This document shows positions 1,724 to 22,132 of a stretch of 25,595 nt of DNA, in pieces. Source of the DNA: a virus; IMG/VR virus record IMGVR_UViG_3300030101_004145, positions 1 through 25,595 of that record. One strand, 5' to 3'. A program made the position numbers and the translations under genes. The notes under the pieces were generated by a model. That model saw only the letters and a list, made by a program, of their open reading frames with translations, searched no databases and had not been told where the DNA came from. Position 1 is the stretch's first letter. Every line of letters begins with the position of its first letter.

Positions 1724-3133
1724 TTAGCCCTTAAGGATAACGTGCTGGTTAGCAGCGCGGACGCAGAGAGCAACCTCAGAGCGGTAGTGGAACGTCGCTA
1801 CGTCAGCTCCAGTATCGCCATTGTTGGTGTGTCCGAGGACTCCACCACCAGTTACCCAGTGCTCCATCTCGCGGCTGTATCCGTTAGCTTCCTTGTAGTA
1901 CATAGCCAAGGAAGGAGCCTTCATTCCTGTACGTGCATCAGCCACCTGCGTGAGAGGCAACATGGCACCTTGGAACTTCGTGCTAGCACCCAGCAAATTA
2001 GGATCGTTCAGCAACTTCCAGTCGTGCTTGTGGAACGTGTATCCACCACGGGTGAAGCTCTTAAATCCGAGCTGCACGGCCATGTCTGCACTGTTTTGGA
2101 AAGCACCAAACTGAGCGGGTAAACCAGCCGTAACACTAGTAGCAATTCCAGCAGCAAGCATATCGTCGATAGCGAGGTCTTGCTTGCGGTTCAAGTACAT
2201 GGCGTACTCGCTAGGAGCTCCTTGCTTATCCAGCTCGATGATGATATCGTCAAACTCAGCGAAGCTATCCAGTGGGTTAGCGTTTGCGTTGGTAACCTTG
2301 ATACCGCGAGCATCAACCTGCGTAAAGTATCCGTCTGAACCAGGGAGGTCCTTGAGGATGCCAGTGCTTGTCTCTGCGTTCTGCTCACCGAAGAGCATCA
2401 TCATCTCGCGGCGATCCTCGAAGCGCTTACGTGCCTCTTGCTCACCGTACATAAACCAGCGATACTCTCCGCCACCGACGTTCACCCATCCGATGTTTGT
2501 AGCCTGAGAACCGTTCACTTGGAAGCGATCCTTTACAATCATGAATGGATTCTTCTGACGAAACACATCAGTGTCGAGGAAGTGCTCAGGCTGGTTTGTA
2601 CCCTGCGCGTAGATGTTACCGAGAACGATGTAGGTCTCAGCAGTAGAAGCCGTGTAAGTAAGGCCATCGTTTGCGATAGCAACACCATCAAGGCGAGCCA
2701 AAGTCACACCATCCGTATCACCTGTTCTCAAGTCGTCCACGACCAAGAGACGAGCCCCCGTGACCGTGTTCATCAGAACGTCATTGGTCTGGAAGAACTT
2801 CGATGTAGCTGGGTCGCTTCCTGGATCACCATCAGCCGCTACAGCACCAGTGATAGTCTCACCCGTACCAGTACCGCAGTTAATAGATGCTGTTTTATGA
2901 CGACGGCCAACTTCCCACCAATCTACTTGGTCGGCACTGCCACCGCTCTTAATAGCACCTGTAAGGCGCAGAAATCCAGTGATACCTTGATCACCGTAGG
3001 TTTCAACCAACTCAGGAATGACCAAGTCCTTGGTCGTGTTAATGAGCTGGTCGACAGTAGTATACTTGTCTGCTGTCAGACGAAAGTCCGCAGGAGCGAC
3101 ATCCATGCTCGCGGGACTGTTAATAGTTGCCAT
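1724..3133 (-). CDS. Major capsid protein (HK97-fold type, 469 aa)
   Basis: A 469-aa protein that begins MATINSPASMDV. Its size and position fit a major capsid protein: scaffold immediately upstream, small virion-type proteins around it. Supporting text features are an N-terminal arm, a central acidic/basic helix-like stretch (about residues 230-250, EQEARKRFEDRREMMMLFGE) and a following EFDDIIIELDKQGAPSEYAMYLN segment of the kind seen in P-domain helices and strands of phage capsid subunits. The C-terminal part (TFHYRSEVALCVRAANQHVILKG) is typical of the last strands of such proteins. It is separated from the scaffold by 11 nt. The HK97 fold is inferred, not demonstrated. Confidence 0.82.
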   Translation of the reverse strand: MATINSPASMDVAPADFRLTADKYTTVDQLINTTKDLVIPELVETYGDQGITGFLRLTGAIKSGGSADQVDWWEVGRRHKTASINCGTGTGETITGAVAADGDPGSDPATSKFFQTNDVLMNTVTGARLLVVDDLRTGDTDGVTLARLDGVAIANDGLTYTASTAETYIVLGNIYAQGTNQPEHFLDTDVFRQKNPFMIVKDRFQVNGSQATNIGWVNVGGGEYRWFMYGEQEARKRFEDRREMMMLFGEQNAETSTGILKDLPGSDGYFTQVDARGIKVTNANANPLDSFAEFDDIIIELDKQGAPSEYAMYLNRKQDLAIDDMLAAGIATSVTAGLPAQFGAFQNSADMAVQLGFKSFTRGGYTFHKHDWKLLNDPNLLGASTKFQGAMLPLTQVADARTGMKAPSLAMYYKEANGYSREMEHWVTGGGVLGHTNNGDTGADVATFHYRSEVALCVRAANQHVILKG

Positions 3134-7321: not shown

Positions 7322-7687
7322 TCAAAAAGAGCTCATTAATATTTCATCTACACTTTCTTGTACATCAGACTTTGAGGCTTCTATAGCCATCATAATATTT
7401 GCCTGAAATCTTTCTACTTCCTCCCCGTCGTTAAAGATAATAATAGTAGGGACTACTACGATTTTATGCTTCTGCTGTAGGGCTGGGCTCTCTACGATAT
7501 CTATGCGCGAAGTAGTGCAATCGTTGAGTTTTTCAATCCACTCCACCCCGTTGCTCTTATTGAAAGAGGCGTTAAACTCCACGACGCATACACCAGAGTT
7601 GCAGACCTCAGCCTCCGCAACCTCGGCTACATAGGCCGCCGCTGAGAAGAACGCAAATGCTGTAAAGAGGGCAAGTATTGCTTTCAT
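7322..7687 (-). CDS. Exported thioredoxin-fold protein lacking CXXC (121 aa)
   Basis: A 121-aa protein with an N-terminal signal-like segment (MKAILALFTAFAFFSAAAYV). The rest follows the thioredoxin layout: strand VCVVEFNAS, a helix, strand RIDIV, then VVVPTIIIFNDGEEVERFQ with the expected cis-proline of the V-P-T turn and the following hairpin, then a helix. Where thioredoxins have WCGPC this protein has FNKSN, so the redox pair is absent and it cannot work as a dithiol oxidoreductase. Other cysteines (residues ~29, 34 and 57) are present. A binding or chaperone role in the envelope is possible. It sits between the membrane/envelope genes and the basic-protein cluster. Confidence 0.72.
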   Translation of the reverse strand: MKAILALFTAFAFFSAAAYVAEVAEAEVCNSGVCVVEFNASFNKSNGVEWIEKLNDCTTSRIDIVESPALQQKHKIVVVPTIIIFNDGEEVERFQANIMMAIEASKSDVQESVDEILMSSF

Positions 7688-7695
7688 AATTCATG

Positions 7696-7980
7696 TTACT
7701 TGAGTTGATCAATCTTTTCTTCTATTCGCTTGATGTCTTCTTTAATCTCCCCGACATCCTCTTGAGTAGACATAATCGTCTGACGAATCAGTTGGTCTTT
7801 CATATCAAACTCCATACGGGAAACCTCCGAGGGGAGTGGCTCAGGGAGCATCTTAGCCTCAGCGATATCGGCCTGCAGGGTAAACCACATCCCGATTAAA
7901 GAAGCCATCCCCACTCCAATCCCTGCCAGCGATTTAATGCTGACGTTGAACCCCATATCCTCGTTAATCTCCTTTGCCAT
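7696..7980 (-). CDS. Single-TM protein with C-terminal coiled coil (94 aa), lysis candidate
   Basis: A 94-aa protein: a short charged N-terminus (MAKEINEDMGFNVS), one hydrophobic segment at about residues 17-37 (LAGIGVGMASLIGMWFTLQA), then a charged helical tail with heptad-like spacing (EDVGEIKEDIKRIEEKIDQLK). It starts 1 nt after the stop of the outer-membrane barrel gene. Small single-TM proteins with coiled-coil tails occur as holin or spanin-like lysis proteins, and also as membrane anchors for virion or exclusion functions. No lipobox is present. I consider lysis or membrane anchoring possible but unproven. Confidence 0.7.
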   Translation of the reverse strand: MAKEINEDMGFNVSIKSLAGIGVGMASLIGMWFTLQADIAEAKMLPEPLPSEVSRMEFDMKDQLIRQTIMSTQEDVGEIKEDIKRIEEKIDQLK

Positions 7981-7981
7981 A

Positions 7982-9016
7982 TCAGAATATTACATAGTTG
8001 ACCCCGACCGAGAAGTCGTGCCACTCCCTGTTCCAGTACTTATTGTATCGTCCTTCTAGGAACCAGCCGAAGGACCTATTCAACTTCCATCCGAAGATTA
8101 GTCCCCCACTATAATCCACCCATTGCCCCCCGTTGAGCTGGAAGTAAGAAAACTCTGACCCCGTATCTAAATGTCGAGGCAAGACATTCCCCCAAGAGTG
8201 CAGCCAGAAGTCTTTGGTATAGTGGTAGTAGTCAAACCCTACTACTAAAGAGTAGTTCCACTCTGTGTTTAGCTCCCCTCGCTTGCGCTGTACATAATCG
8301 TCAAGGACTTTTGGGATGACAACTTCTCGCCATACATCGAAGCTGCTGGCTACTACATCCCCGTCAGGGTTCATGTACTCCCCTGTAACGAAGTCATAGC
8401 TATAACCCTCGCTCAAGGCAAGCTGCGTGTAGTGCAAACTTTCGTCAGGCAGCTCCCACTGCTTGAGCGGATCATAACCGTATGGTTCCGATATGCGTTG
8501 TGCCCCCCCTATATTGAAAGACAGCTTCCCCTTAGAGTTGATGCGCAGCCTCTGCGAAGCCTCGAGGTAGCTCACGTCAGCAAAACCATCCTGGACGTAC
8601 TCTACCTTCCCGACGAACCTCCCCCCGACGTATCTGAGGAAGTGGTTCTGGTCTAGGTACAGCACCCCTTGCTGCCTGCGATAGTCGCTTTCGAATAGGA
8701 ACTCAAAACCTTTGACCGTACCGATTGTAGCTGCATCAGAGTAAGAGTGCTCCTCACCGTTGTAAAATACATTGGCTCGGTTCTCATACTTGAACCTAGC
8801 AATCTTTCGTATCCCCAGGGTAAGGGAATAGTCGAAAGGGGTCTCTACAATATCTGTTTGCAGTGGACCACTAAGTACAGAGTACGTATTGTAGTCAGAC
8901 AGGGAGTTGTTCCCGTTGACAGCAGCGTAAAAAGTGGAGAAGCGAAACGCCTTCTTTAGTGTCTGAGCCCCACTCGCTAGCGGGATGCACAGGAGTAGAG
9001 CCAGTAGGAGTCTCAT
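7982..9016 (-). CDS. Phage-encoded outer-membrane beta-barrel protein (344 aa)
   Basis: A 344-aa protein with a clean signal peptide (MRLLLALLLCIPLASGAQT, cleavage likely after SGA) and no further hydrophobic helices. The mature part alternates polar and hydrophobic residues with frequent aromatic girdle residues (FRFSTFYAAV, YSLVVGFDYYHYT, FGWFLEGRYNKYW) and ends DFSVGVNYVIF. The final aromatic residue is the usual signal for BAM-dependent insertion. This is an outer-membrane barrel, about 14-18 strands by length. It lacks the N-terminal PAYAGS-like signature of PorP/SprF partners. Its ATG overlaps the stop of the T9SS protein by 4 nt (ATGA), so both are made together. Receptor masking or a surface complex are plausible roles. 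Confidence 0.8.
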   Translation of the reverse strand: MRLLLALLLCIPLASGAQTLKKAFRFSTFYAAVNGNNSLSDYNTYSVLSGPLQTDIVETPFDYSLTLGIRKIARFKYENRANVFYNGEEHSYSDAATIGTVKGFEFLFESDYRRQQGVLYLDQNHFLRYVGGRFVGKVEYVQDGFADVSYLEASQRLRINSKGKLSFNIGGAQRISEPYGYDPLKQWELPDESLHYTQLALSEGYSYDFVTGEYMNPDGDVVASSFDVWREVVIPKVLDDYVQRKRGELNTEWNYSLVVGFDYYHYTKDFWLHSWGNVLPRHLDTGSEFSYFQLNGGQWVDYSGGLIFGWKLNRSFGWFLEGRYNKYWNREWHDFSVGVNYVIF

Positions 9017-11697
9017 AGCTTAACGATGGTTTGCTTGAACATGCGATTGTCAGACACCACAATCAAGTGATACGTACCGACAGGCCACTGCGATGCGTCT
9101 TGCATGGCGGTTGAGGATCGTAGCACCTCCCTCCCTGTAGCATCGAAGACAGTCAACACAAACGGGTATGGGGAGTCCACATAGAAATGACGCTCTACAA
9201 CCGTCGGGCGGATAGTAACCTCCTCTGCTAATTCAGTGACACCCGTAGGCCAGCCCTGCTGACAGTAATCGTACAGTCCGATACACCCCCCGTCCCACTC
9301 CGCTTCACAGCAGTAGGGGTCCACCTCAATCACCCACCCGTAGCAAGAATCGTTAAGCCAGTATGGGACGCCTGCACCTGTAGCGCAGCCTGCGTCATAC
9401 AGGCACTCCCCTTCGGTATTAGCCTCGACGCTGTAGTTGTAAGCTGATACATCCATACACCCCACCACCACGGGGATGCAGCTACCGTTGTCCACGTTGG
9501 CCCCCTCATCAAAGTTCAGCGCAGTCGGTTCTGTGCACCCAAACACAGCCAACGTTAAACAAGAGCCATCATCATAATCTGCTTCATACCCTTGAGTGTA
9601 GTACTCTAGATATCCAGCCTGCATGCAGCCAGCGGCATAGTAGCAACTGCTGTCAGCGGTGTTGGCTAGTGCGACATAGTTTTGTGCCGTCGTATCCATA
9701 CACCCATAGACATACTCTTCGCAAAGGTTGCCGCAGTATGTCGTCGCTGTGTATGTGTATGGGAAGGGGATGATATTCCACTGAGGCACGTCAATGAGCG
9801 TGTCCCCCGTTGGGCCCTCAAGTATAAATCCGCACTGAGCCACAGTAAACAAAGACTGCGGCGTGGAGAAGAAGAACAGCTCTACCTCTTCGTCAGAAGG
9901 GAGGTATAGCTCAAAGCTTTCTTCCACCCCATCTGCTGGCCCCATTTGGTACTGCGGGGAAATCCACTCCCCTTGCTTTACTCCAATCCAACTACCAAAC
10001 CATCCATCACCAACGCCGTCAGTAAGGGTTAGCGTGTAAAAACAAGAGTCTGGCTGCTGCTCTACGTTAGCCTCTGGGCTGTAGTTATAATACGCCGTGT
10101 CTATACATCCGTATACGACTGGAGTTTCGCAGAGCAAATCAAGAAACACCGTGGCGTCGGGGTTGTACTCTAGGTAATCTGGGTCCCCACACCCCACCAA
10201 ATCCTCTATGGTTTGGCATACAGGGGCAGGGAAAGAAGCTTCTAAACTGTAACCGAAGTTTATGTTTTCTGATGGGAGTGACCAGATTTCTTCACCACAA
10301 GCCTCTACTATCACCGTCCCGTCTTCGCCACCCCACTGAGACCCATTCATTCCGTCACCATACGAATCCAACACAAGGATTTGTATTTCACTCCCTATAG
10401 ATACGCAGGTGTTTGTTACGAGGGGTATCCCCACAGGGGCTCCAGACAGGTCCCCTGTATTAATCGAGGCTATAACCCCGCCTAAAGTCAGGTCCACCAA
10501 GCCCCAACTGGTTTCTGCTGGGTAGTTGTCGGGGATGACAGTTACAGAAACCTCTGTTTGCGTGATGTCGCAATTAGCTGACTCGACTACGTTGCACCCC
10601 TGATTGAAGTTGGCCCAAGGGTTGTAGTTTGTGGCGGTGGAGTCAGTACACCCAACTATAGAACCGCAAGGGAAGCAGCTCTCCCAACAGAAGGTAGGGA
10701 GGGTCAGCGATCCCTCTACGTTTAAGGGTCTGTTTACGAACCCCCATTCATCAAACAGAAAACACGGGGAGTTTAGAACTCCCGCTGGCATTTCTTGATA
10801 CCCCCAATCATCTGCTGAAAACTTCCATAGGTAATCGCCTAGCGGGAAGTCAATGGTAACCTCCCATATCCCGTCCCCGTCTAGGTCTTGCATTTGATTG
10901 CAGCTACCGCACCACCCATACCAGCTTGTGTTCACCTCTGGTGTTACGATACCTTCTGGGTGTGGCCCGTTTAAGTCTAGCCGAAACCTTACGCTGTAAA
11001 GACAGTAGTCATCAATAACGGCCAAGGGGTCGTAATTGCTGGCCTCTTCATCCATGCACCCAACAACTGGTGGGGGGCAAGGGAGCAGGTTAAACGGGAT
11101 TTCCATTTGAGCAGAGGCGAAGTCATACACCCCTATGTCTAGCCCACATCCGTTAGTTAGGGTAAAGAACCCCTCCCCGTATTGGCAGCATATCCCGTCA
11201 CCAAACTCATCGTATGCTACGAACGTATACTGTCCAGGGGGTAGGGTTACTAGAACTTCTTCTGCCACCCCCGAAGCGACAACGTTGGTGTCAGACAGTA
11301 TCTCCCATGAGCTTTCGTCAGCGTACTGATCAGAAACGAAGTTTACGTTTACCCAGCTTTGCGCCTGCAGAGACAAAATGGGGAGGAGCAAGAACCATTT
11401 AGTTTTATTGGCCCAGTATGCAGCACTCATCTTCCCCTTGGCTATGTTGCGTCGGTGTCGGGCCTTGAAGCTTTTGCGCTTGGCCTTCATCCGTGCGCTC
11501 TCCCCTGCTTTCGGTTTCCCTGCTGTGCTAGCCCCTTGCTCGCCGTAGCGTATCAGCTTTACTTTATCCCCTTCTTTAGCTAATACTATATGTGACTTTT
11601 TGGGGTGCTGCGGTGTTCGCTTCGGCTTATTCACGCCTTTGAGCCCGTGCTTTTTTAATAGCCGAGCTACTCGTTTCCGCACACGATCGTTTGCCAT
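9013..11697 (-). CDS. Fusion: small basic phage protein + secreted T9SS type A cysteine-rich surface protein (894 aa)
   Basis: Residues 1-101 match a small basic phage protein I recognise (DKVKLIRYGEQG, then KSFKARHRRNIAKGKMSAA, YWANKTKW), which normally ends at that KW. Here the frame continues directly into FLLLPILSLQAQS, a signal peptide core, so an internal start at Met90 (11430) would give a complete exported protein. The exported part holds beta-sandwich domains with DEFGDGICC and DSYGDGMNG motifs (about 115-195, 380-490), a third DGVGDGW copy (~560), eight GC-D--A-NY--xA repeats (213-765) and a DPYCCEAEWDGGC segment (~793-805). Residues 825-894 are a T9SS type A sorting domain (VLTVFDATGREVL, WPVGTYHLIVV, terminal KQTIVKL). 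Many paired cysteines indicate an extracellular protein. It has its own promoter and is coupled to the barrel gene. Confidence 0.88.
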   Translation of the reverse strand: MANDRVRKRVARLLKKHGLKGVNKPKRTPQHPKKSHIVLAKEGDKVKLIRYGEQGASTAGKPKAGESARMKAKRKSFKARHRRNIAKGKMSAAYWANKTKWFLLLPILSLQAQSWVNVNFVSDQYADESSWEILSDTNVVASGVAEEVLVTLPPGQYTFVAYDEFGDGICCQYGEGFFTLTNGCGLDIGVYDFASAQMEIPFNLLPCPPPVVGCMDEEASNYDPLAVIDDYCLYSVRFRLDLNGPHPEGIVTPEVNTSWYGWCGSCNQMQDLDGDGIWEVTIDFPLGDYLWKFSADDWGYQEMPAGVLNSPCFLFDEWGFVNRPLNVEGSLTLPTFCWESCFPCGSIVGCTDSTATNYNPWANFNQGCNVVESANCDITQTEVSVTVIPDNYPAETSWGLVDLTLGGVIASINTGDLSGAPVGIPLVTNTCVSIGSEIQILVLDSYGDGMNGSQWGGEDGTVIVEACGEEIWSLPSENINFGYSLEASFPAPVCQTIEDLVGCGDPDYLEYNPDATVFLDLLCETPVVYGCIDTAYYNYSPEANVEQQPDSCFYTLTLTDGVGDGWFGSWIGVKQGEWISPQYQMGPADGVEESFELYLPSDEEVELFFFSTPQSLFTVAQCGFILEGPTGDTLIDVPQWNIIPFPYTYTATTYCGNLCEEYVYGCMDTTAQNYVALANTADSSCYYAAGCMQAGYLEYYTQGYEADYDDGSCLTLAVFGCTEPTALNFDEGANVDNGSCIPVVVGCMDVSAYNYSVEANTEGECLYDAGCATGAGVPYWLNDSCYGWVIEVDPYCCEAEWDGGCIGLYDYCQQGWPTGVTELAEEVTIRPTVVERHFYVDSPYPFVLTVFDATGREVLRSSTAMQDASQWPVGTYHLIVVSDNRMFKQTIVKL
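9403..11061 (-). repeat. Eight GCxDxxAxNYxxxAxxxxxxC protein repeats
   Basis: Within the T9SS type A protein, copies begin near residues 213, 349, 502, 529, 665, 690, 720 and 746. The best conserved are GCTDSTATNYNPWAN and GCTEPTALNFDEGANVDNGSC-like units. Each unit has a Cys at both ends, so each can form its own disulfide loop. Copies are scattered between larger domains in the first half and close together in the second half. This repeat is common in secreted proteins of marine Bacteroidota. Confidence 0.8.
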
Positions 11698-12215: not shown

Positions 12216-14003
12216 TTAAGTATAAATCGAGAAGTACCCGTTGATGTTTCCTTCTATGGCGCTGCGGTTGCTGGATTTGTTGGTCTTGTACGTAATAATC
12301 TCCTGTACTTTTCCGTCAAAGTAAACCGAACTAGAATCTTGGGCTTGACTCGCAATGTAAGTAGAAGTGTTTGCCTCTGTGTTTACCGTTGCTGTAGCCG
12401 AACTCCCAGAAGAGCTGCCATTTAAATGCGCTTGAAAATTGGTGCCGTTATAGTCGAAACCGCTCAAACATTGACCTGATACAGAGGTGCCGAAATGAGT
12501 GCCATTCATCCAAAGAATAATATTGGTTGTGCCGCCACCTGGGGGATCGAAGTTGCCATATATGAAGTTGGAGCTGTAGGGGGAGGCCGAATCTGCCTCA
12601 GCCAACAAATATTGAGTGTTTGAAGCCGCTACAGCCGAATTGTGAACTGTAAAAACGCTTGCATTATTCTGTGATAATTCAACAGCATACGTGGTGGTTT
12701 TTAAATAATCTGATGTCCCATTAAAGTCCAACGCTGGCTTCCCGTTCTCAGTAATTACAGCAGAGCCGTTGTATATCTGCGGCATAGCAGTATAACTAGT
12801 CTGAGAAGCGTCGTTTCCATTACCGCTCTGATCGTACCATTTAGTCACATAAGCATTGTAGTTAGTCCCACTAGGGTTGTTGCAGTAGCTTACAATTGCA
12901 GCAGTATCCAAGTCCCCGTTAGTATCAAATCCGATATCATACTCTGGGTCACTGCTATCGAGCGTCCCCACTGTAGCTGCACTGTCTACTACAATGCGCA
13001 TGCACTTGCTAGCGGTATTGGCAAGCTGACGTACTGAATAGGCGGCCGCTGCTCCTGTGCCATAGCTCTCAGAAAGAAGCCCAGAGGTGGGCGTGCCGAA
13101 GTTGCCGATTTGGTAGTAGGCGTTGACGTTCCCCTCTATGGCGCTTATACTGTGGCTGCTAGTGCTAGGGTACAATATTAGCTCTTGAGTGCTGAACATT
13201 GAATATGTCCAATTAGTTCCAGCCCAATTGTAACCGATAAAATACTGAGTGATTGAACCTGTACTCATATCAGCATTAAAATGCAATAAGTGCTGACTTG
13301 AAAAGTCGTTATATAAATCCTGTCTAGTCTTGCTTGTTAAGCTGTATGCGGATCCGTTTTTACGTATTGCCACATTGCTGTACTCGGCTGTATCAATTAA
13401 GGCGGTTGAGCTTGTTTGCTCTGCTGCTAAAAACCACCCATTGCCAGTCCTTACCACTTGTGACCTGTGAAACAAAACGCTTTTTGCAGTGCTTAAAAAG
13501 CTAACGCTAAAGCCTTTCAGCTCTCCTGCAACCTGAGCTTCTAGCCCCATGTTCGCTCCTGATTTAACGGCTGGCTTGCCGTTTTCAGTAATTACCCCAC
13601 TGCCGTTGTATATCTGCGGTTGACGTGAGCCTAAACTTTGCGTAGCGTTTGCCGCAGTGCCACCTACGTTTGCTTGGTCATACCAAGTAACTAGGTAGCC
13701 GTTAGCGCTTCCGCAATGCGTGGCAATCGCTGAAGTGTCCAGGTCTCCAGAACTATCAAAACCAATGTCTGTCTCGCTGTCGTCGCTGTCCCTGCGGATT
13801 CGCATGCAGCTGCCGCTGTAGTCTTTGTCAAGCTTGCGCACGGAGTAGGCTGCTGCCGCCCCTGTGTACGTGTCAAGCAATAGATTCGTACCAGAGACAA
13901 CGATAGTCACCCCGTTGATATCGGTGATGCTGGCTTTAGCTACCCCGTTGAAATCCCCGAGGCTAGCTACAGCTACCCCGTTTATGTCACTGATATTAGG
14001 CAA
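12216..14003 (-). CDS. Fiber/appendage protein with two lectin-like domains; start is non-ATG (about 595 aa)
   Basis: The frame has no ATG before its first domain. The nearest candidate is TTG at 14003, overlapping the stop of the 495-aa gene; a TTG at 14063 would give 615 aa. Counting from 14063, residues 25-55 carry three INGV/NGVAKASI-type units that are common in phage tail proteins. Two homologous domains follow at about 62-319 and 330-615. Each runs GAAAAYSVR-L, CMRI, DIGFD--GDLDT, then WYDQ, PQIYNGS-VITENGKPA, and ends in SAIEGN-N-Y. This layout matches the LamG-like/arabinofuranosidase-like jelly-rolls found in phage fibers. A carbohydrate-binding, host-recognition role is likely. A fusion to the 495-aa protein by +1 frameshifting would also explain the missing start. 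Confidence 0.8.
   Translation of the reverse strand: MPNISDINGVAVASLGDFNGVAKASITDINGVTIVVSGTNLLLDTYTGAAAAYSVRKLDKDYSGSCMRIRRDSDDSETDIGFDSSGDLDTSAIATHCGSANGYLVTWYDQANVGGTAANATQSLGSRQPQIYNGSGVITENGKPAVKSGANMGLEAQVAGELKGFSVSFLSTAKSVLFHRSQVVRTGNGWFLAAEQTSSTALIDTAEYSNVAIRKNGSAYSLTSKTRQDLYNDFSSQHLLHFNADMSTGSITQYFIGYNWAGTNWTYSMFSTQELILYPSTSSHSISAIEGNVNAYYQIGNFGTPTSGLLSESYGTGAAAAYSVRQLANTASKCMRIVVDSAATVGTLDSSDPEYDIGFDTNGDLDTAAIVSYCNNPSGTNYNAYVTKWYDQSGNGNDASQTSYTAMPQIYNGSAVITENGKPALDFNGTSDYLKTTTYAVELSQNNASVFTVHNSAVAASNTQYLLAEADSASPYSSNFIYGNFDPPGGGTTNIILWMNGTHFGTSVSGQCLSGFDYNGTNFQAHLNGSSSGSSATATVNTEANTSTYIASQAQDSSSVYFDGKVQEIITYKTNKSSNRSAIEGNINGYFSIYT
12219..13880 (-). repeat. Tandem duplication of a lectin-like domain in the fiber gene
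   Basis: Copy 1 is at about 13107-13880, copy 2 at about 12219-13076. They are most alike at the SVITENGKPA region, where stretches of DNA near 12741-12785 and 13578-13622 are nearly the same (for example CAGTAATTAC and CCGTTGTATATCTGCGG). Copy 2 carries extra residues after CMRIVVDS. Confidence 0.75.
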
Positions 14004-15483
14004 GGTCGATGTAGTCTTGTGATGGTGAGAAGAAAATCTTCTGGTCAGCCAAGCAATACCCAACCACCCTGACGAAGTCAGAGGCGTCAGTAGGCTGCGT
14101 CTCAGTCAAATCTCCTGCAGTAGTAGAAATATACAAAGGCTTACCTGCATCCCCTGGGTCTACAGCTACATACCCCACCCCATAAACCAACATCCCGTTA
14201 GTACTAGAGTTACCCCCAAGGGCCATACCTAACAACCCCCTTGTGGTATCCTCACCATCTGCATCGACCAAGGTCCATGTGCCAGAATAGAAAGTGTAAA
14301 CCTTACCAGCTACAGTAGAGTCATCCCCGAACTTTACGATCGTACCCTCGGCCTCACCAGCAGCGTTGACGGCGCTGCTCTGGCTAGCGAACTCAATCTC
14401 CGTCCCCCCAGAGGCCGCAGCCCACTTCAGACCAGTAGACTCGCTGCTGTCGGCTGTCAACACGTAGTTGTTAGTGCCTACAGCCAAGGCGCTAGGGTCG
14501 CCGCTCCCGTCACCAACCAAGATGCTACCCTTGGCAGTTACGTCGACAGAGCTTACCGCAGAGGTTCCATTCCCCAACAAGACGTGGCCGTCACCTAGGG
14601 TGGTGGCCCCAGTACCGCCGCTACCGACAGCCAGAGTAGAAGACAACCCCGCTGCGTTACCTGCGATATTAGATGTGAAGGCGAGCTGCTGAGTATTCCC
14701 GTTTACGCTATCTACTTTCAGTACTTGCCCCGCCGTACCTGGCTGCAAAGGCAGTTGCAAAGTATGACTAGCCGCACCAGCGTGAGGAGACCCTGCGATA
14801 CCGACGTAGTGGGCGTTGCTAGACTCGCAATACAAACGTATCTCCGACTGGTCCGTACCGTCGTTCTTGACATCTAAGAGCTGTCCGTCGTAAGTGAGGT
14901 TGGCCTCAGCTACCACCGCGCTAGTACCGTTTCCAGTCAACACAGAGTTGGCCGCGAGGCTCGTAGCCCCAGTACCGCCGTCAGCTACCCCGAGCGTACC
15001 CGTGATAGAAGAAGCCCCCAAGTCAACAGCCATCTCGGTAGACTCTATAACGAGTCCCCCGTTGGCTTTCAGGTCTGCGCTGAACTCCGTAGAAGTAAGG
15101 TCGAGGCCGTCCCCAGCAGTAAAAGACCCACCCCCACCAGGGATAGTAACGGTAACCTGATCCGAAACAGGCTCGGTAACCGTAACCCCATCCCCAGTAA
15201 ACGTAAACTGAGATACCGAAGAGGTAAGGGTGGTGCTCTCATCAATAACAGTGATGAACTGACCGCCACCGCCTCCGCCGCCACCACCAGTGATAGTGAC
15301 CGTAACGTTGTCCCCCGAAGCCGAAGCTGTAACGCCTGTACCGACAAAGTCGATAGACGAAGCCGAAGAGGTGATATCTCCACCGTCGTCTTTGATTACG
15401 ATATTGCTTCCCCCAGCCTCTCCCTTCGGACCAGTAGAGGTTACGACAATCGTATTGGTAGTATTATTAGTGGAAATAGCCAT
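13996..15483 (-). CDS. Phage tail fiber-like protein with Gly-rich linker (495 aa)
   Basis: A 495-aa low-complexity protein starting MAISTNNTTNTIVVTSTGPK. It has a short collagen-like STGPKGEAGGS segment (~15-26), a run of nine glycines (~67-75), repeated DG---SS-S-i-F-GtGVT--- units, and GGTGATSL-ANSVL-GNGTSAV units (two main copies). The C-terminal part (GTIVKFGDDSTVAGKVYTFY, GLLGMALG, DFVRVVGYCLADQKIFFSPS) is the typical end domain of shaft-type phage fibers. It lies 3 nt after the 142-aa gene. Its last 23 bases overlap the downstream fiber frame at 14003 and may be read into it by frameshift. A structural shaft carrying receptor-binding domains is likely. Confidence 0.85.
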   Translation of the reverse strand: MAISTNNTTNTIVVTSTGPKGEAGGSNIVIKDDGGDITSSASSIDFVGTGVTASASGDNVTVTITGGGGGGGGGQFITVIDESTTLTSSVSQFTFTGDGVTVTEPVSDQVTVTIPGGGGSFTAGDGLDLTSTEFSADLKANGGLVIESTEMAVDLGASSITGTLGVADGGTGATSLAANSVLTGNGTSAVVAEANLTYDGQLLDVKNDGTDQSEIRLYCESSNAHYVGIAGSPHAGAASHTLQLPLQPGTAGQVLKVDSVNGNTQQLAFTSNIAGNAAGLSSTLAVGSGGTGATTLGDGHVLLGNGTSAVSSVDVTAKGSILVGDGSGDPSALAVGTNNYVLTADSSESTGLKWAAASGGTEIEFASQSSAVNAAGEAEGTIVKFGDDSTVAGKVYTFYSGTWTLVDADGEDTTRGLLGMALGGNSSTNGMLVYGVGYVAVDPGDAGKPLYISTTAGDLTETQPTDASDFVRVVGYCLADQKIFFSPSQDYIDLA

Positions 15484-15486
15484 GCT

Positions 15487-15915
15487 TTATGTACTTGCCA
15501 ATGGTTCTGATACGTCTTCGATAACCTTGAAGGCACCACGTAAAATTGTTTTCTCTTCGTTAGTTGAACTGTTCAAGCGCTGCAGGTCGTAGACGTAGCG
15601 CCCCGCGTTCACTAGCCTCATAGTAGCCGCCGTAGCCCTAACTGTAAGTTGGTTGTTTATCCCCGCTGTATTGCTCGAGGCCCCACCGATATCAAACGTA
15701 AAGCCACCAGAGTTAGATGACAGCACCACCCCAACATCACCATCGCTGTTAGGGCTATCGCGGACCTCCATTATAAAAGTGTCCCCATCCAAACTATCTT
15801 CGTTGCCTGCGGCCTCGGCCCCAGTGAAGAAAGTCAGAGTCACATCGAAGCTATCGCCGCGACGGGTGGTGATAGCGAGCTTTTCGCTAGTGTCTAAGTT
15901 GAGTCTCTTGCTCAT
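15487..15915 (-). CDS. Ig-like/baseplate-adaptor type phage protein (142 aa)
   Basis: A 142-aa protein starting MSKRLNLDTSEKLAITTRRG. The order TRRGDSFDVTLTF, DTFIMEVRDSP, MRLVNAGRYVYDLQRL and ILRGAFKVIEDV follows a beta-sandwich module common in phages just before fiber genes (pattern: RGDTF-ltltf, Gytf-mqvR, G-y-YDLq, llkG-f-v). It probably attaches a fiber to the tail or neck. Its ATG overlaps the portal stop by 4 nt (ATGA), and the fiber gene follows 3 nt after its stop. Confidence 0.75.
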   Translation of the reverse strand: MSKRLNLDTSEKLAITTRRGDSFDVTLTFFTGAEAAGNEDSLDGDTFIMEVRDSPNSDGDVGVVLSSNSGGFTFDIGGASSNTAGINNQLTVRATAATMRLVNAGRYVYDLQRLNSSTNEEKTILRGAFKVIEDVSEPLAST

Positions 15916-18347
15916 CCTTGTAGTAGTTGTGAAATATCAAATCCAGCCCCCACTTGCTCCTCTAAAGTTCCTCTCTCCCCTTTGCGCTGCGCTATGAGCT
16001 TGCTCTGCTCTATAGCTTGCTTCTTGACGCGCTCGTCTTTCCTATCGTCCTTTTGCTTCTCTATCTGCGAACGGGCCATCTGATCCGCCCCCTTCTCGGC
16101 ACTGCGATTCATAATGCGCAACTGCTCAATCTCTTTCTGCATCTCGTGCTTCACCTTCGCGATAGCAATCTCTGCTTCGGTTTCGAGCTGAATCTTCTGT
16201 GCATCGAGCTGCGCCGTCATCTGCATCTCTTGCTGCTTGGCTTGTGAAGCAACTAAAGCCGCTTGCTGCGCCTGCTGAGATTGCATCTGCGAGTTCTGCA
16301 TAGCGATTTCTTGCTGCTTCTTCATGCGCTTCTTGCGCCGTACCATAAGAAGTTGCTCGGCTTGGTTTACGTCTTTCATAGCACGCACCGCCATAGCGTC
16401 TTCTAGGTCTAGCTCTTTCTGTGACAAAGCGATTTGGATGTTCTGCTCCAAATACACCCTATCCTTATCCTCCATCTCTCGCTGCACTTGCACCCCGAAG
16501 TTGTACATCGGAAGGTCGCTGAAAGAAGACAGCACCCCCATATTGGTTTCGCCGATGGCGTTCTCATACGCTTTGAAGATGACTGACTCTGGGGGGAGGA
16601 TTTGCAAGCACTTCACTACGTCTTGACAAACCTTCTTGTACAACACCATGGCTGCATTGGTGACGTCGTAAGTGGCGTTGTTGCTCGCTGCGATGGCTTG
16701 CTCCCGAACACCCACTAGGGCGTCGCTCTTCGGTGTAGAAGCATCGACCGCTTCGTTAATCCCAGTGGTATCGCGAATCATACGCAAGTAGTGGTTGTAC
16801 AGCGCAATCAACTCATTGATGTTGCGGATGCTGTTCCCAATCTCTCGTACTGGCGGATTCTGGAATCCCCCCTCTGGGTTCTTACTGCGATAGTAGAACA
16901 CCCCCGTCTGCTCGTAGATATCGTGGAGCTCCAAAGGCTGCAACTCCCCACCCTTCCCGAGCTGTACGTTCTCCAACCCTTCGATATCGATTACCAACCC
17001 ATCTGGCTTGGCTTTAGCGATAGCTTGCTGGAGCTTCAAGTGGGTGAGCTGTAGCATATCGGCAAAGCCGACGCAGCTATCCACCATAGACTTAGGCAGT
17101 TGGTCGTTGAGGTTGACCGCTACAGCAGAGAAAGAAAGCTTGGCACGAGAGATATCGTGGATGTTTTTAGGTACGTTCGCGGTCCTACCGTAGTTCAAGA
17201 TGTGGTCGGTACCGAGGATGTACATACCTGAGTACACCGTCTCCACCTCCATTTTATGTGGGGTGCGCTCGTATACACTACCTGTACGCTCCTTGTACTT
17301 CATCCCCTCGAAGAAGAACCCCGTATTGCCAAAGCGGTTTTGCTTTTCTTCGAAGTGCATGCAGTCTACAGACTTGAACTCAAAGTCCAAGACCTCCACT
17401 GTATACCCCCCGTACTGACTCTTGTCAATTTTAGAAGGGTAGTAGGGGGCTTTCATAGACCTGTTAGAAGAAGCTCGCTTGGCGTTCTTCGTAATCTTCT
17501 GCAAGTCTTGTTCTGTAAGCTGGTCCCCCGCCAAGCGCTTTAGCTCTTGCAAAGGTATCTCTCGGACGCAACCCGCGTATACTATGTCGTCGAGGTTGGG
17601 GTCGTCAGTGTAGCTGTGTACGAAGTTGACTGGGTCTACATACTCCACCCGAATCCCGTAGTTGCTGTCGTTTGTGCGCTTGACCACGCTCATACCCAAG
17701 GCTGCGAGGTCGTTTACGCAGCGACGGAAAGTATTGTCTTCGAAATTATTCCAAGACAAAGTCATATCCGTGGCTACCTGGGCTGCAATCTCTGCGTCAG
17801 TCTTGATGTTGGTATCCATCAAGATTTCTGCCTCCTCGATAGTTTCTGGGAGGGTGTCGGGGTCTTCCCCCACCAACACCTCTCCTGTTAGTTCCTTCAG
17901 CTTCTGTAGCTGTGGGCGCAACTTAATCTGGTTTTTAATCCTGTTCTTCTCTCGGTTCTTCTCCGAAGAGGAGAGCGGATCTACCGCCTCAAGGTTGGGG
18001 TATGGGTTGCGAGAGAGAATCTTATTGACTACGACACGAACGAACTTAGGTAGGATAGGGACAGACGTGAAATCTAAGTTCATCAGACTCCCGTCCCCAT
18101 TGTTTGGGTCTAGAGCATTTAAGAGCTGCTTGTATATGCTCGTATCTTGTGTTCCGTTAGCGTAGTCCCTATTGCGAGCAAAAATATTCTTCCTACCCCC
18201 GTAAGTTGAAGATGTGCTGTCCGTGCTCCCCCACTGGCCCTCTATGGCCTTGGCGTACCTCAACCCATACTCCTTGGAGATTTTCTCCTCGTATGGGGCC
18301 AAGGGATCGGGGAAACCACCTGACTGGTCACTCTTATTGTTATACAT
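15912..18347 (-). CDS. Portal protein (811 aa)
   Basis: An 811-aa protein immediately after the large terminase, the usual position of the portal ring subunit through which DNA enters the head. Visible landmarks: an N-terminal region with many charged helices (PKFVRVVVNKILSRNPYP at ~100), a core (RVEYVDPVNFVHSYTDDPNL, IVYAGCVREIPLQEL) typical of portal wing/stem regions, the helix-rich INELIALYNHYLRMIRDTTGINEAVDAS segment, and TPKSDALVGVREQAIAASNN. Residues from ~670 are a long Gln/Met/Lys-rich coiled region (QMQSQQAQQAALVASQAKQQ). The long Gln-rich tail makes it larger than most portals (about 450-700 aa) and resembles the big portals of some Bacteroidota phages. It is preceded by a -7 box. 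Confidence 0.85.
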   Translation of the reverse strand: MYNNKSDQSGGFPDPLAPYEEKISKEYGLRYAKAIEGQWGSTDSTSSTYGGRKNIFARNRDYANGTQDTSIYKQLLNALDPNNGDGSLMNLDFTSVPILPKFVRVVVNKILSRNPYPNLEAVDPLSSSEKNREKNRIKNQIKLRPQLQKLKELTGEVLVGEDPDTLPETIEEAEILMDTNIKTDAEIAAQVATDMTLSWNNFEDNTFRRCVNDLAALGMSVVKRTNDSNYGIRVEYVDPVNFVHSYTDDPNLDDIVYAGCVREIPLQELKRLAGDQLTEQDLQKITKNAKRASSNRSMKAPYYPSKIDKSQYGGYTVEVLDFEFKSVDCMHFEEKQNRFGNTGFFFEGMKYKERTGSVYERTPHKMEVETVYSGMYILGTDHILNYGRTANVPKNIHDISRAKLSFSAVAVNLNDQLPKSMVDSCVGFADMLQLTHLKLQQAIAKAKPDGLVIDIEGLENVQLGKGGELQPLELHDIYEQTGVFYYRSKNPEGGFQNPPVREIGNSIRNINELIALYNHYLRMIRDTTGINEAVDASTPKSDALVGVREQAIAASNNATYDVTNAAMVLYKKVCQDVVKCLQILPPESVIFKAYENAIGETNMGVLSSFSDLPMYNFGVQVQREMEDKDRVYLEQNIQIALSQKELDLEDAMAVRAMKDVNQAEQLLMVRRKKRMKKQQEIAMQNSQMQSQQAQQAALVASQAKQQEMQMTAQLDAQKIQLETEAEIAIAKVKHEMQKEIEQLRIMNRSAEKGADQMARSQIEKQKDDRKDERVKKQAIEQSKLIAQRKGERGTLEEQVGAGFDISQLLQG

Positions 18348-18384: not shown

Positions 18385-20508
18385 TCAACCCCTCACCTTA
18401 TACCGCCTGAAGAAGCGCTTCTCATTGAAGTTCGACTCTTTCTTTTTCACCTTCACTTTCTGTGCCGCTAGCAAAGCCAAACCAGAGCTGATGGTCAAGT
18501 CAAACTTGGTTCTGTTGCTGATGTCATAACCAATCCAATCCTCTAGGGTGCGGTTGAAATACATACTCCCCACCTCCCCAGTCTCCCTGTTGATGCCTAC
18601 GTGATCGTGGACGTAAGCCTCTATAGCTTGGGCGTGAGATTGGATTACATCGACAGAGTTAGATGGTATCCCTTTGGTCTTCACGTTGACCTTCGCGCTG
18701 GTGCTCATCAGGTGCTTCGGTCTATCCATCAAGTACCCATCATATCCGCGCTGCTCAAAGTACCTAGCTATCCCGTACTTGTTGTTCTCTATCAAAATGG
18801 GGTACCCGTAGAAGACCGCCGCCATAAGCACGTCTTCATAAAATATCGAAGCCAAAGGCGGACGGGAAGCGTACTCAAGAACAAACATGTTAGCAGGTAC
18901 TTCCATATTGAACTTGTTGTACAGATGTAGCGCACCCTTGGATCCGCGCCCATCCACAGTAGCATCGAGATCGTAGCTATCCACCCCGCCACAACCAAGG
19001 TGAGGGTGAGGAGCGATTCTCTTCGTTCGGTCATGAGCCTTCTTGTTTCGGAGTTCTACTGGGGGCATCCAAGCTACCTTGAACCTCCCTTTGGGATCTG
19101 GTGTAAAGATAACTTCAGTATCCTCTACCCCACCTTTCCAAGTGAACTGCCCCGTAACTACGGGGTTTGGAAATAGGTTGTCGTTGTGCTCTACTTGCTC
19201 GTATATCTGACCGATATTAAACAGGCTCCCATCGATACTATCTCGGAAGGCTTCATCAGTGGTAAACGGGAACTGGCGAATGGTTTCGTTTAGCTCCGAG
19301 GCGTCGTGCTTTAGGCTCTCCCTTTCGTTCTTCAAGAACGTCTTGGCCCCCATATGAACGTACTCCCCATCGATGCCCTCTACGTGTTGCTCTGGGTCTT
19401 CTATTATAGCCCTCCCATAAACATCGAAGAAGCCCTCTAGGGATTCGTAAGCAGGGATAAACAGCCTGTAAAGACCCGACCTAGTCCTCCCATTCTTGTT
19501 CCTCTCCTGCGGGTCCGAGTCCCCCCATAAATCTTTGTACTCGCTCCCCCCTTTTGCCATGGGGTTTACGGTGCTTCCGACCATAGCCTTCCCCACGATT
19601 TTTCTTCCTACGATCAAACAGGTCCTCTGAATCCTCCAAGCCTCCCTTATGTCGGTGGGTTTTTCCCATTTCCCCGCTTCGTCTAGATACAGCAAGTGTA
19701 GTTTCTCTCCGTCGTAGGCGTTGTTCGTGGTGTTCTTCCAGTTGATGACCGTATTCAAGGCGTCCCCCACTGTAGCTGTCTTGTTGTTCTTCGTAATCTT
19801 TTTTGAAGGCTCACGGAAAGCTAGCTCCATACGGGGGTTGGTGGTGCCGTCTTGGATAGGCTTGAAGAAGAATGGGTACTTGCGGAACATAGTGACCACC
19901 TTCTTCATGAAGATATTCTCCTGTGCGTCTTTACCTGTCTTGCTCTGTATCCCCAGCAGCTTGTCTTTTACTTGGGTAGCTTCGTCAACTATGACTGAGG
20001 AACATATGTTTGTATATCCTGATCTACGGCACTTGGTATATAACTGTCCAATACAACGAGGGTCCGCCTCACACGCAGCCAAATGTAAGAATATATCCCT
20101 TTGGAAATCAAGGTAGTAGGGGTGGCCGATGTCTAGCACCGACCACTGCAGCATCATGTAGTGACGCCCCGTGATGTATGTAGCGTCACCTCGGTTATAA
20201 AACCAAACGCCCTCACGCCTACGGCGAAATTCTTCTTCGATATATGGACGAAACTTTTCTCGAAACTCCCGAGGCATCTCCGCCCACTCATCCATAGAAC
20301 GAATACGCGATATCTCTTTGGGTAGATCAGCTCTCCGCCAGTGCTGATCCTTGATGGGTAGATTCTGGTAGAGGATGTCTTTGACTTTAGGGGGCTTTGG
20401 AAGGACAATGAGAATGCCACCGATTTCGATGTGGTCACCATGCGTGCCGTTGGGACATATCGCCACTGCTTTCTCTTCATAGCCTTTGACATCAACTAAA
20501 ACGCTCAT
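18385..20508 (-). CDS. terL: Terminase large subunit (707 aa)
   Basis: The DNA-packaging ATPase/nuclease. Residues 159-171 (KCRRSGYTNICSS) occupy the Walker A position in a deviant form seen in large terminases of this type. HLLYLDEAG (271-279) is Walker B with D276/E277. GSTVNP (311-316) fits the coupling motif. The C-terminal RuvC/RNase H-like nuclease starts at GGVDSYDLD (D510) and continues with GSKGALHLYNK and ILIENNKYGIARYFEQRGYDG (E574). At 707 aa it is longer than common TerL proteins (about 420-600) and its nuclease text is closer to those of crAss-like and related Bacteroidota phages, as far as I can judge by eye. The ATG overlaps the stop of the T9SS type B gene by 4 nt (ATGA). Confidence 0.92.
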   Translation of the reverse strand: MSVLVDVKGYEEKAVAICPNGTHGDHIEIGGILIVLPKPPKVKDILYQNLPIKDQHWRRADLPKEISRIRSMDEWAEMPREFREKFRPYIEEEFRRRREGVWFYNRGDATYITGRHYMMLQWSVLDIGHPYYLDFQRDIFLHLAACEADPRCIGQLYTKCRRSGYTNICSSVIVDEATQVKDKLLGIQSKTGKDAQENIFMKKVVTMFRKYPFFFKPIQDGTTNPRMELAFREPSKKITKNNKTATVGDALNTVINWKNTTNNAYDGEKLHLLYLDEAGKWEKPTDIREAWRIQRTCLIVGRKIVGKAMVGSTVNPMAKGGSEYKDLWGDSDPQERNKNGRTRSGLYRLFIPAYESLEGFFDVYGRAIIEDPEQHVEGIDGEYVHMGAKTFLKNERESLKHDASELNETIRQFPFTTDEAFRDSIDGSLFNIGQIYEQVEHNDNLFPNPVVTGQFTWKGGVEDTEVIFTPDPKGRFKVAWMPPVELRNKKAHDRTKRIAPHPHLGCGGVDSYDLDATVDGRGSKGALHLYNKFNMEVPANMFVLEYASRPPLASIFYEDVLMAAVFYGYPILIENNKYGIARYFEQRGYDGYLMDRPKHLMSTSAKVNVKTKGIPSNSVDVIQSHAQAIEAYVHDHVGINRETGEVGSMYFNRTLEDWIGYDISNRTKFDLTISSGLALLAAQKVKVKKKESNFNEKRFFRRYKVRG

Positions 20509-21836
20509 CTAAAAATCTGTACTGTCCCCTCTATACCTATGGCCCTGCCAGAGTACGAGCTGGCCTTAATCACCCAAGCATACACGCCGTCAGGAACGTA
20601 GTGACCCCCGCCGTTGTAGCTCCCGTCCCAACCGTATTCTGGGTCGTCGGTTTGAAAAACTACCCTACCCCACCTGTTGTATATGGTCATAGTCCAATCA
20701 TTCCAACAGCTAGGGTCAGATTGCTGGGCATAGAAACTATCGTTTACCCCATCGTTGTTTGGGGTAAATACGTTAGGTACAAACACCACCATCTCTTCGC
20801 AATCGTCAACCCCTGGCTGGTCGTCACACGGGAGACCTGTATCGCAATCCAACCACAGCTCTTGCACTATGTACTCGTGTAGGGTGTCCAGCAGGTATAC
20901 ATAGGTGGTGTCATAAACGTAGTCTGTGGATAGTATGGTGTCAAGTATATACACATAGGTTGTGTCGTATATATAGTTATCCACCCAGGTTGTATCATAT
21001 ACATACTCAGTCTCGTAGATTGTATCTGTAAGATACTCAGTTAGATAGAGCGTGTCAGAGACGTATATATAGGTCGTGTCGTAGAAGTACCAATTGATAG
21101 GTATTGGTATTGTATCGTACTCTACCACGATGACAGTATCTGGGGGAAGCTCAATGTAAACGGTGTCTACGATAACCTCTGGGAGGGGGTCTCCGCAGGG
21201 GCCCACTACCACCCAGTTGTCCACCCAGTTTTCGTCGTCATATACTCCATTGCCCGTAGAAGTGCCATCCCCGTTGATGCCTACCTCTGCCCAACCCCCG
21301 TCTTCGGCATACATAGTGGGACCATAACTTATCTGCCAAATCACGACTTGTACGCTGAGGTCTAAGCTCAACCAATAGTCTATCCCCCCTTCAAGGTTAC
21401 AGTACAGTTGAGCTGCGAAAGGACCATCTACGCAATCGTTTTGATAGGGGTTGTACAACGGAAACTCTACTGTATCTCCAGTATAGTATGGGGGATCTAT
21501 CAGCTCATCATAAAGGTTGGTCCAGTTATTAATGGACTCCATAGTCGTAGCCGAGTACAACCAGCCTGGGTGACTAGAATCATCAGATATAGAGAATCCA
21601 GAGGGAAAGTCCCACCCCTGATTCATTGCGTTGCAATCGCTATCTAAAGCTTGGAACCCAAACTGGATTTCAGATACCCCGTATGGACCTGCCGTCCCCC
21701 CGCAGTTCTCCGTGTTGTTGAATGCAATCGTTACGCTACCCTCGATTAGGTCTACATCGAGTATCTCTAAGTCACACTGCGAGTACAGTGGAGAGGTAAC
21801 CCAAAGTAGTATTAGGAATACTTTACATATCCGCAT
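20505..21836 (-). CDS. Secreted protein with T9SS type B (gliding-associated) C-terminal domain (443 aa)
   Basis: A 443-aa protein with a signal peptide (MRICKVFLILLWVTSPLYSQ). Residues ~21-215 are a beta-rich, Trp-rich domain. Residues ~220-325 are a repeat linker of YDTTYVY--DT-type units. Residues 350-443 are a type B/CHU_C sorting domain: VPNVFTPNNDGVND (353-366), MTIYNRWGRVVF (383-394), then WDGSYNGG and VPDGVYAWVI (403-423). T9SS moves such proteins across the outer membrane, where they stay on the surface or are released. The gene starts 2 nt after the stop of the candidate small terminase and overlaps the large terminase start by 4 nt, so it is a true part of the phage packaging operon. 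Function unknown: adhesin, exclusion or surface-shielding roles are possible. Confidence 0.88.
   Translation of the reverse strand: MRICKVFLILLWVTSPLYSQCDLEILDVDLIEGSVTIAFNNTENCGGTAGPYGVSEIQFGFQALDSDCNAMNQGWDFPSGFSISDDSSHPGWLYSATTMESINNWTNLYDELIDPPYYTGDTVEFPLYNPYQNDCVDGPFAAQLYCNLEGGIDYWLSLDLSVQVVIWQISYGPTMYAEDGGWAEVGINGDGTSTGNGVYDDENWVDNWVVVGPCGDPLPEVIVDTVYIELPPDTVIVVEYDTIPIPINWYFYDTTYIYVSDTLYLTEYLTDTIYETEYVYDTTWVDNYIYDTTYVYILDTILSTDYVYDTTYVYLLDTLHEYIVQELWLDCDTGLPCDDQPGVDDCEEMVVFVPNVFTPNNDGVNDSFYAQQSDPSCWNDWTMTIYNRWGRVVFQTDDPEYGWDGSYNGGGHYVPDGVYAWVIKASSYSGRAIGIEGTVQIFR
20880..21170 (-). repeat. Asp-Thr/Tyr repeat linker (DT-Y units)
   Basis: Residues ~223-319 of the T9SS type B protein repeat short units such as VYDTTYVYLLDTL, IYDTTYVYILDTI and FYDTTYIYVSDTL, spaced about 16-20 residues. 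The DNA shows matching repeats of GTGTCGTA/GTATCATA-like and ATATACATA-like words. Probably an extended beta stalk holding the N-terminal domain away from the cell surface. Confidence 0.75.
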
Positions 21837-21838
21837 AA

Positions 21839-22132
21839 CTATTTCTTACTGAATTTTTCTGCGAACCCCCCAGTGTAGTCTTTACCCTCAGAGACTTCGC
21901 CCCCCAAAGTAAGGTCCTTCATCATCTGCTCCAACTTCTGTCTTTCAACCAAAAGCTCTTTGCAATCTACGGCTGTCTGCTTGATGGATTGCAACTCCGC
22001 CTTCCTCGCGCTCCCGTTCACTTCGGAGTCTACAGGCTTCTTAATCTCCTCAATCATATTGTCTATGGCGACCTCCATGCTCCCCATCAACCGCTTCGCT
22101 GCATCCAGCGTAGTAAACTTCTTAGATGGCAT
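21839..22132 (-). CDS. Candidate terminase small subunit (97 aa)
   Basis: A 97-aa all-helical protein starting MPSKKFTTLDAAKRLMGSME. TTLDAAKRLMGSMEVAIDNMIEEI resembles an N-terminal helical DNA-recognition unit, and SIKQTAVDCKELLVERQKLEQMMKDL a coiled-coil oligomerisation helix. That layout fits small terminases. Position also fits, in the same operon as the large terminase with only the T9SS gene between. No conserved signature lets me be certain; a general helical phage protein is the alternative. Its start overlaps the GroES-like gene by 11 nt. Confidence 0.65.
   Translation of the reverse strand: MPSKKFTTLDAAKRLMGSMEVAIDNMIEEIKKPVDSEVNGSARKAELQSIKQTAVDCKELLVERQKLEQMMKDLTLGGEVSEGKDYTGGFAEKFSKK

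Follow-up and report, generated by a model that had tools for sequence, protein, structure and literature searches.

Predicted type IX secretion cargo proteins and an associated outer-membrane barrel in probable phages of marine Bacteroidota

The 25,595-base IMG/VR viral record IMGVR_UViG_3300030101_004145, which was analysed over its full length and is referred to here as the window, contains two genes for predicted cargo proteins of the bacterial type IX secretion system (T9SS), one with a type A and one with a type B C-terminal sorting domain (CTD). We propose, with a probability that we put at roughly 0.6, that the window phage encodes both as surface proteins, which would be exported via the host Sec machinery and then the host T9SS. 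This proposal is based on sequence, namely on predicted signal peptides, the sorting domains and the constraint acting on them, a conserved gene module and the near-absence from cells of the outer-membrane barrel that belongs to this module. The window virus appears to be a podovirus-like phage of marine Bacteroidota, and a Bacteroidota host is very likely because the closest terminases belong to phages of Flavobacterium and Cellulophaga.

The first cargo gene is an open reading frame (ORF) of 894 amino acids (aa). An earlier note on this DNA had assigned a type A sorting domain and Cys-rich repeats to its product, and suggested searches with the hidden Markov models (HMMs) TIGR04183 and PF18962. 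The NCBIfam model TIGR04183 matched residues 837-892 with 18.2 bits (E 0.0019) in a protein search, which is under the cut-off of 23, and was flagged over the cut-off in a genome-level search of the window, with 22.9-23.2 bits (E 1.9e-6). The Pfam model PF18962 gave no match reaching E 1 in the 894-aa protein; its homologues do match this model. The low score against the public model can be explained by the loss of the canonical YPNPT motif, which has become IRPTVVE in the alignment of the window lineage. An HMM made from the C-termini of 15 clean phage relatives outside this lineage scored the 894-aa protein with 27.6 bits (E 1.1e-7), compared to 11.5 bits for the best of 1000 tail shuffles. 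Type A homologues score 22.5-60 bits on the domain, and the ratio of non-synonymous to synonymous substitution rates (dN/dS) of the type A CTD, about 0.1-0.25, indicates purifying selection. We accept the tail as a weak but real, divergent type A domain, as predicted in the earlier note, and HMM matches, homology, a signal peptide, purifying selection and synteny all support the proposal of a phage-encoded T9SS cargo. The Cys-rich repeats (GCTDPxAxNY...DDGSC) are likewise real; repeats and modules are expandable and of a kind typical for Bacteroidota extracellular proteins. What the earlier note had missed are the signal peptide inside the ORF, a stronger cargo gene upstream of the terminase and the membership of the 894-aa ORF in a four-gene module.

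The N-terminus of the 894-aa protein is phage-type, as had been noted, and belongs to phrog_7595. Elsewhere, phrog_7595 is a stand-alone gene of 88-96 aa, for example in roseophage CRP-1 and cyanophage S-CBS2, whose product normally ends with ...AAYWANKVKW directly before the stop codon, and it is found as a separate gene after a thioredoxin-like gene in many phages (L152, L153 and others). It also aligns to part of the minor head protein family phrog_220. In the 894-aa ORF, the frame runs on after ...AAYWANKTKW, the usual end of phrog_7595, into FLLLPILSLQAQ followed by SW, the core of a signal peptide. The same junction is present in the window and six further contigs, and the fusion is limited to one lineage. 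A programmed frameshift at the junction was considered and rejected as unneeded, since all seven fusions (7/7) are in frame. In a 67.9-kb contig (G009), the cargo lacks the phage part and starts with the canonical signal peptide MNRLLTLLLLLPFSMMAQ followed by GSWVNVNFVS. Because the cargo is unfused in G009 and phrog_7595 is separate in many phages, we regard the window gene as a derived in-frame fusion of a widespread phage protein to a complete predicted Sec and T9SS cargo, and not, as the phage-type N-terminus had been taken to mean, as a sign of one protein that is both phage-type and exported. The signal peptide is located at about residues 90-113 of the ORF, and a start at the ATG at 11430, which is preceded by the Shine-Dalgarno-like sequence AAGGGGAAG, would give a normal signal peptide of 24 residues. 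For the recognition of signal peptides we relied on a simple hydrophobicity rule; in other contigs, where a protein begins often hinges on which start codon is chosen. According to this rule, the type A signal peptide passes with the start at 11430 and fails from the first ATG of the ORF, and 7 of the 8 unfused type A homologues pass. Signal peptidase cleavage of the fusion, or internal initiation at 11430, would release the type A cargo.

The second cargo, a protein of 443 aa, matches the type B models TIGR04131 (45.6 bits, cut-off 35) and PF13585 (CHU_C, 66.7 bits, cut-off 27), and its predicted Sec signal peptide is MRICKVFLILLWVTSPLYSQ followed by CDL. The signal-peptide rule is passed by this protein and by 25 of 35 homologues, among which some script-chosen start codons look wrong. 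The gene is conserved in 44 viral contigs; TIGR04131 matched in all 42 homologous contigs that were searched, in 30 of them over the cut-off. Its stop overlaps the terminase start by 4 nucleotides (nt) in the window, and most contigs that share this terminase type have the type B gene immediately ahead of the terminase gene, with a 4-nt overlap or within 0.75 kb, whereas it is located elsewhere in phages with another terminase type. The dN/dS of the type B CTD is about 0.03-0.15, again indicating purifying selection. Both cargo types are found together in the window, in G009, G011 and G016, and in 7 of the 50 barrel contigs described below. Given these domains and signals, we consider it very probable that the cargo would be exported by a T9SS. 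The DTxY-rich linker of the type B protein (20783-21170) varies in length among homologues, and L115, L116 and L118 carry an extra inserted stretch. Type B CTDs of different sequence classes are found behind similar N-domains (L107, L115, L116 and L118 were compared), which suggests domain swapping. The N-domain contains an invariant Q-x-V-x-W-Q-I-S motif (residue 163, window position 21350) and several invariant cysteines. A thioester adhesin, a reading prompted by Q163xVIWQIS, was rejected: there was no Pfam match, the LYC cysteine is not conserved, and the thioester-domain fold was not among the best fold matches of the N-domain, for which the model is weak (pLDDT, predicted local distance difference test, 55).

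The type A cargo, a predicted 12-strand outer-membrane barrel, a 94-aa membrane and coiled-coil protein and a predicted exported thioredoxin-fold protein are a conserved phage module (Table 1), in which the start of the barrel gene overlaps the stop of the type A gene by 4 nt. Among 50 loci picked by barrel homology, with near relatives included, 45 carry a type A cargo over the cut-off (one each), as compared to 1 of 50 control contigs sharing only phrog_7595. All 45 cargo genes are on the strand of the barrel, with the CTD within 0.9 kb upstream in 35 and within 4 kb downstream in 10 contigs. A fairer sample size is given by the 37 dereplicated genomes used for a comparison of distances, in which barrel and cargo co-vary tightest within the module (Mantel r 0.85, p 0.001), followed by the other two module genes (r 0.75 and 0.74). 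The barrel is about 60% identical across phages whose terminases are about 21% identical or hardly alignable, and the module has therefore moved between phage lineages or outlasts the hallmark genes. On the G009 contig (L129, 10879-14981), the module is found at another genome position than in the window, with a 157-aa gene and a very long late gene as neighbours, as though the four module genes travelled together as one unit.

The structure model of the barrel has 12 strands and a pLDDT of 72, and the stretch 72-100 is poorly modelled. Its solved-structure neighbours, as identified with Foldseek, are general outer-membrane barrels only, with FadL as a minor match (TM 0.34), and a single viral protein is a clear structural relative; sequence searches against the PDB were uninformative. 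At least 431 relatives are present in IMG/VR viral contigs, and matches in cellular genomes number 4 among 84,980. A host origin was rejected, as these are just four contigs of metagenome-assembled genomes (MAGs) and both examined in detail look viral. Contigs with the module (L225 and L226) were binned to a Sphingobacteriales MAG and to an archaeal MAG (Nitrosopelagicus); L225 has a viral appearance, and misbinning is the probable explanation of the archaeal case. The dN/dS of the barrel is 0.03-0.05, consistent with purifying selection, and 21 of 37 barrels pass the signal-peptide rule, with failures mostly due to the chosen start trimming the n-region.

Table 1. Features of the window and the basis of their assignment
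Feature	Position	Strand	Basis
121-aa predicted exported thioredoxin-fold protein	7322..7687	(-)	After 94-aa gene in nearly all loci
94-aa protein, one transmembrane segment and coiled coil	7696..7980	(-)	After barrel in nearly all loci
344-aa predicted phage-specific outer-membrane beta-barrel with signal peptide	7982..9016	(-)	Structure model, 12 strands predicted
894-aa ORF, phrog_7595 fused in frame to Cys-rich, repeat-bearing predicted T9SS type A cargo	9013..11697	(-)	HMM, homology
Predicted T9SS type A C-terminal sorting domain	9019..9189	(-)	TIGR04183, relatives HMM
Conserved CLYDAGC...WLNDxCYxWVIxVDxYCCxxxWD...YC module, immediately ahead of sorting domain	9255..9405	(-)	Comparison with relatives
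Internal ATG (11430) and predicted signal peptide MSAAYWANKTKWFLLLPILSLQAQ followed by SW	11359..11430	(-)	Homologous to MNRLLTLLLLLPFSMMAQ followed by GSW of unfused homologue
phrog_7595 part, residues 10-100	11398..11670	(-)	PHROGs, E 5e-40
443-aa predicted T9SS type B cargo: signal peptide (1-19), beta-rich N-domain, DTxY-rich linker, type B CTD	20505..21836	(-)	TIGR04131, PF13585
Predicted T9SS type B sorting domain (TIGR04131 / PF13585 CHU_C), residues 352-443	20508..20783	(-)	
Terminase large subunit	18385..20508	(-)	PHROGs; relatives are phages of Flavobacterium and Cellulophaga
Portal protein	15912..18347	(-)	PHROGs, E 2.5e-196
Virion structural protein (phrog_13704)	1724..3133	(-)	PHROGs

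We propose that marine Bacteroidota viruses probably redecorate the surface of infected cells. The type A cargo would be a Cys-rich, adhesin-like repeat protein with a type A sorting domain, which late in infection would use the host T9SS to reach the cell surface and be held there; late expression is assumed because the cargo genes sit among late genes. The barrel, placed as sprF is beside sprB, probably helps to retain or collect this cargo, and on balance we favour it as a functional partner. The type B cargo would leave through the host T9SS via a host shuttle, and the surface of the infected cell would thus be remodelled by the phage. The most likely benefit might be that adsorption of further phages is blocked or that the stickiness of infected cells and debris is altered; surface exclusion or masking as the main benefit is a tentative suggestion. 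Equally tentative is the idea of a phage-made two-partner surface display on top of the host T9SS, in which a dedicated viral barrel would collect or anchor the type A cargo. By analogy, this could be a viral counterpart of SprB/SprF, made of unrelated parts and used across phage lineages with unrelated terminases.

Several points weigh against this picture. For the type A cargo described so far PorV is enough, which makes a dedicated partner unnecessary, and the barrel was rejected as a PorP/SprF or PorV shuttle since it matches neither TIGR03519 nor any shuttle family. No PorP/SprF gene (TIGR03519) was found in 45 phage contigs (0/45), with 6 matches in each of two Bacteroidota MAGs as positive control, and a host shuttle would therefore be needed for the type B cargo. 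The barrel model is of moderate confidence, the association was measured on loci chosen by the barrel itself, and no cultured phage with the barrel or the module was found in our searches; matches in cyanophage S-CAM3 and marine virus AG-345-P14 cover just part of the repeats, not the module. Finally, the genes next to the module in several large phages suggest lysis instead. It is the main competitor of exclusion because an amidase endolysin comes after the module in several larger phages, although we judge a lysis or release module to be rather unlikely. In such a module, the 94-aa protein would be holin- or inner-spanin-like with the barrel as its outer-membrane counterpart, and the T9SS cargo would free progeny from debris or keep released phage unstuck. 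In L198, L207, L217, L218, L220 and L227, the thioredoxin-like gene is followed by a gene that either resembles an endolysin at its start or is identified as one by Pfam, with PG_binding_1 and Amidase_2 in the three post-module endolysins that were scanned; moreover, the single transmembrane segment and coiled coil of the 94-aa protein would fit, and no spanin was recognised among the families searched. However, the 94-aa protein has no family match, holin and spanin families included, small basic and structural genes without an endolysin follow the module in podovirus-like genomes including the window, and lysis does not require a T9SS surface adhesin.

Exclusion could also be absent altogether if the cargo were auxiliary adhesins that change the attachment of infected cells to particles or kin, spreading progeny with no anti-phage role. 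The expandable repeats are in keeping with this, and the present results do not separate adhesion from exclusion, but a lytic phage has little time to profit from adhesion, and we find this explanation about as doubtful as lysis. It is considerably less probable that the cargo are virion proteins such as fibres or decorations, with a CTD-like tail that is merely an immunoglobulin-like domain and the phrog_7595 part anchoring the type A protein to the virion. The cargo genes do lie in the late region by terminase, portal and structural genes, and the alignment of phrog_7595 with the minor head protein family speaks for this as well, whereas the type B, unfused type A, barrel and thioredoxin-like genes have conserved signal peptides, an outer-membrane barrel constantly accompanies the type A cargo, and only one lineage has the phrog_7595 fusion. 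T9SS domains are a hallmark of Bacteroidota, and the named control genomes are without any, which might raise the suspicion of host DNA misassembled into viral contigs. This is refuted for practical purposes by a gene order repeated in many contigs from many samples, the overlap of the type B and terminase genes and the rarity of the barrel in cellular genomes.

All main genes of the window are on the minus strand, among them the terminase, portal and structural proteins assigned with PHROGs. A near-identical virus is known as a 58.3-kb contig, in which an exact terminal overlap was sought and not found. The gene at 12216-14063 codes for a 615-aa protein with two repeat copies (GAAAAYSVR...WYDQSGNGNDA), which matches the virion structural family phrog_10356 and is a possible fibre. 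A phage-encoded GroES-like co-chaperonin (22122-22697; phrog_13932, E 3e-31) lies two genes upstream of the type B cargo, and a DUF5675 protein (23862-24350; Pfam 88 bits) has a weak Tlde1 match. In L225, a DUF5675-like gene directly follows the barrel, and the product of the window gene may be a lysis enzyme.

If redecoration of the host surface is correct, much of the marine Bacteroidota virosphere, and not one phage only, would have the hijacking of a bacterial secretion machine as a lasting trait, and there would be an accessible test case for the remodelling of a host's surface by a virus. The barrel, which is named here as a viral family with hundreds of relatives, would then be a marker to assign uncultivated viruses to T9SS-bearing hosts.

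T9SS cargo had been thought in the earlier note not to be a described class of phage genes, which is wrong. Three type A cargo genes of Cryophage were reported in 2020, with superinfection exclusion or competition as the proposed role (PMC7468147), and T9SS sorting domains were reported in 2019 on crAss-BACON phage contigs (PMC6949934). Phage-encoded type A cargo are therefore known, whereas a search limited to open-licence papers turned up neither type B cargo in phages nor a conserved cargo-barrel module. As in Cryophage, use of the host machine is proposed for phage-encoded proteins with a type A sorting domain; Cryophage, however, is a single phage with variable enzymes and a PA14 protein as cargo, whereas here many phages share one conserved cargo family that is linked to a phage-specific barrel, in addition to the type B cargo. 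In the crAss-BACON cluster 2 contigs, which are from Bacteroidetes phages, T9SS sorting domains are likewise encoded close to the section with the head genes, but these are gut crAss-like phages, for which no barrel partner or type B signal was described. In bacteria, a CTD suffices to direct a passenger through the T9SS, PorV serves the type A cargo, and type B cargo use PorP/SprF barrels, which are usually encoded directly downstream of the cargo (PMC12618676, PMC9143113). The phage cargo have the same sorting domain family (TIGR04183, PF18962) as the PorV-served type A cargo of Bacteroidota; these host cargo, however, share one shuttle and have no link to a dedicated barrel gene. The closest parallel to the phage pair is SprB/SprF and PG1035/PorP, where a T9SS cargo and an outer-membrane barrel are often encoded by adjacent genes, with sprF directly downstream of sprB (PMC12618676, PMC9143113). 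The host pairs combine a type B CTD with a 14-strand barrel of the FadL-family PorP/SprF type, whereas in the phage pair the CTD would be of type A and the barrel, apparently with 12 strands, is unrelated.

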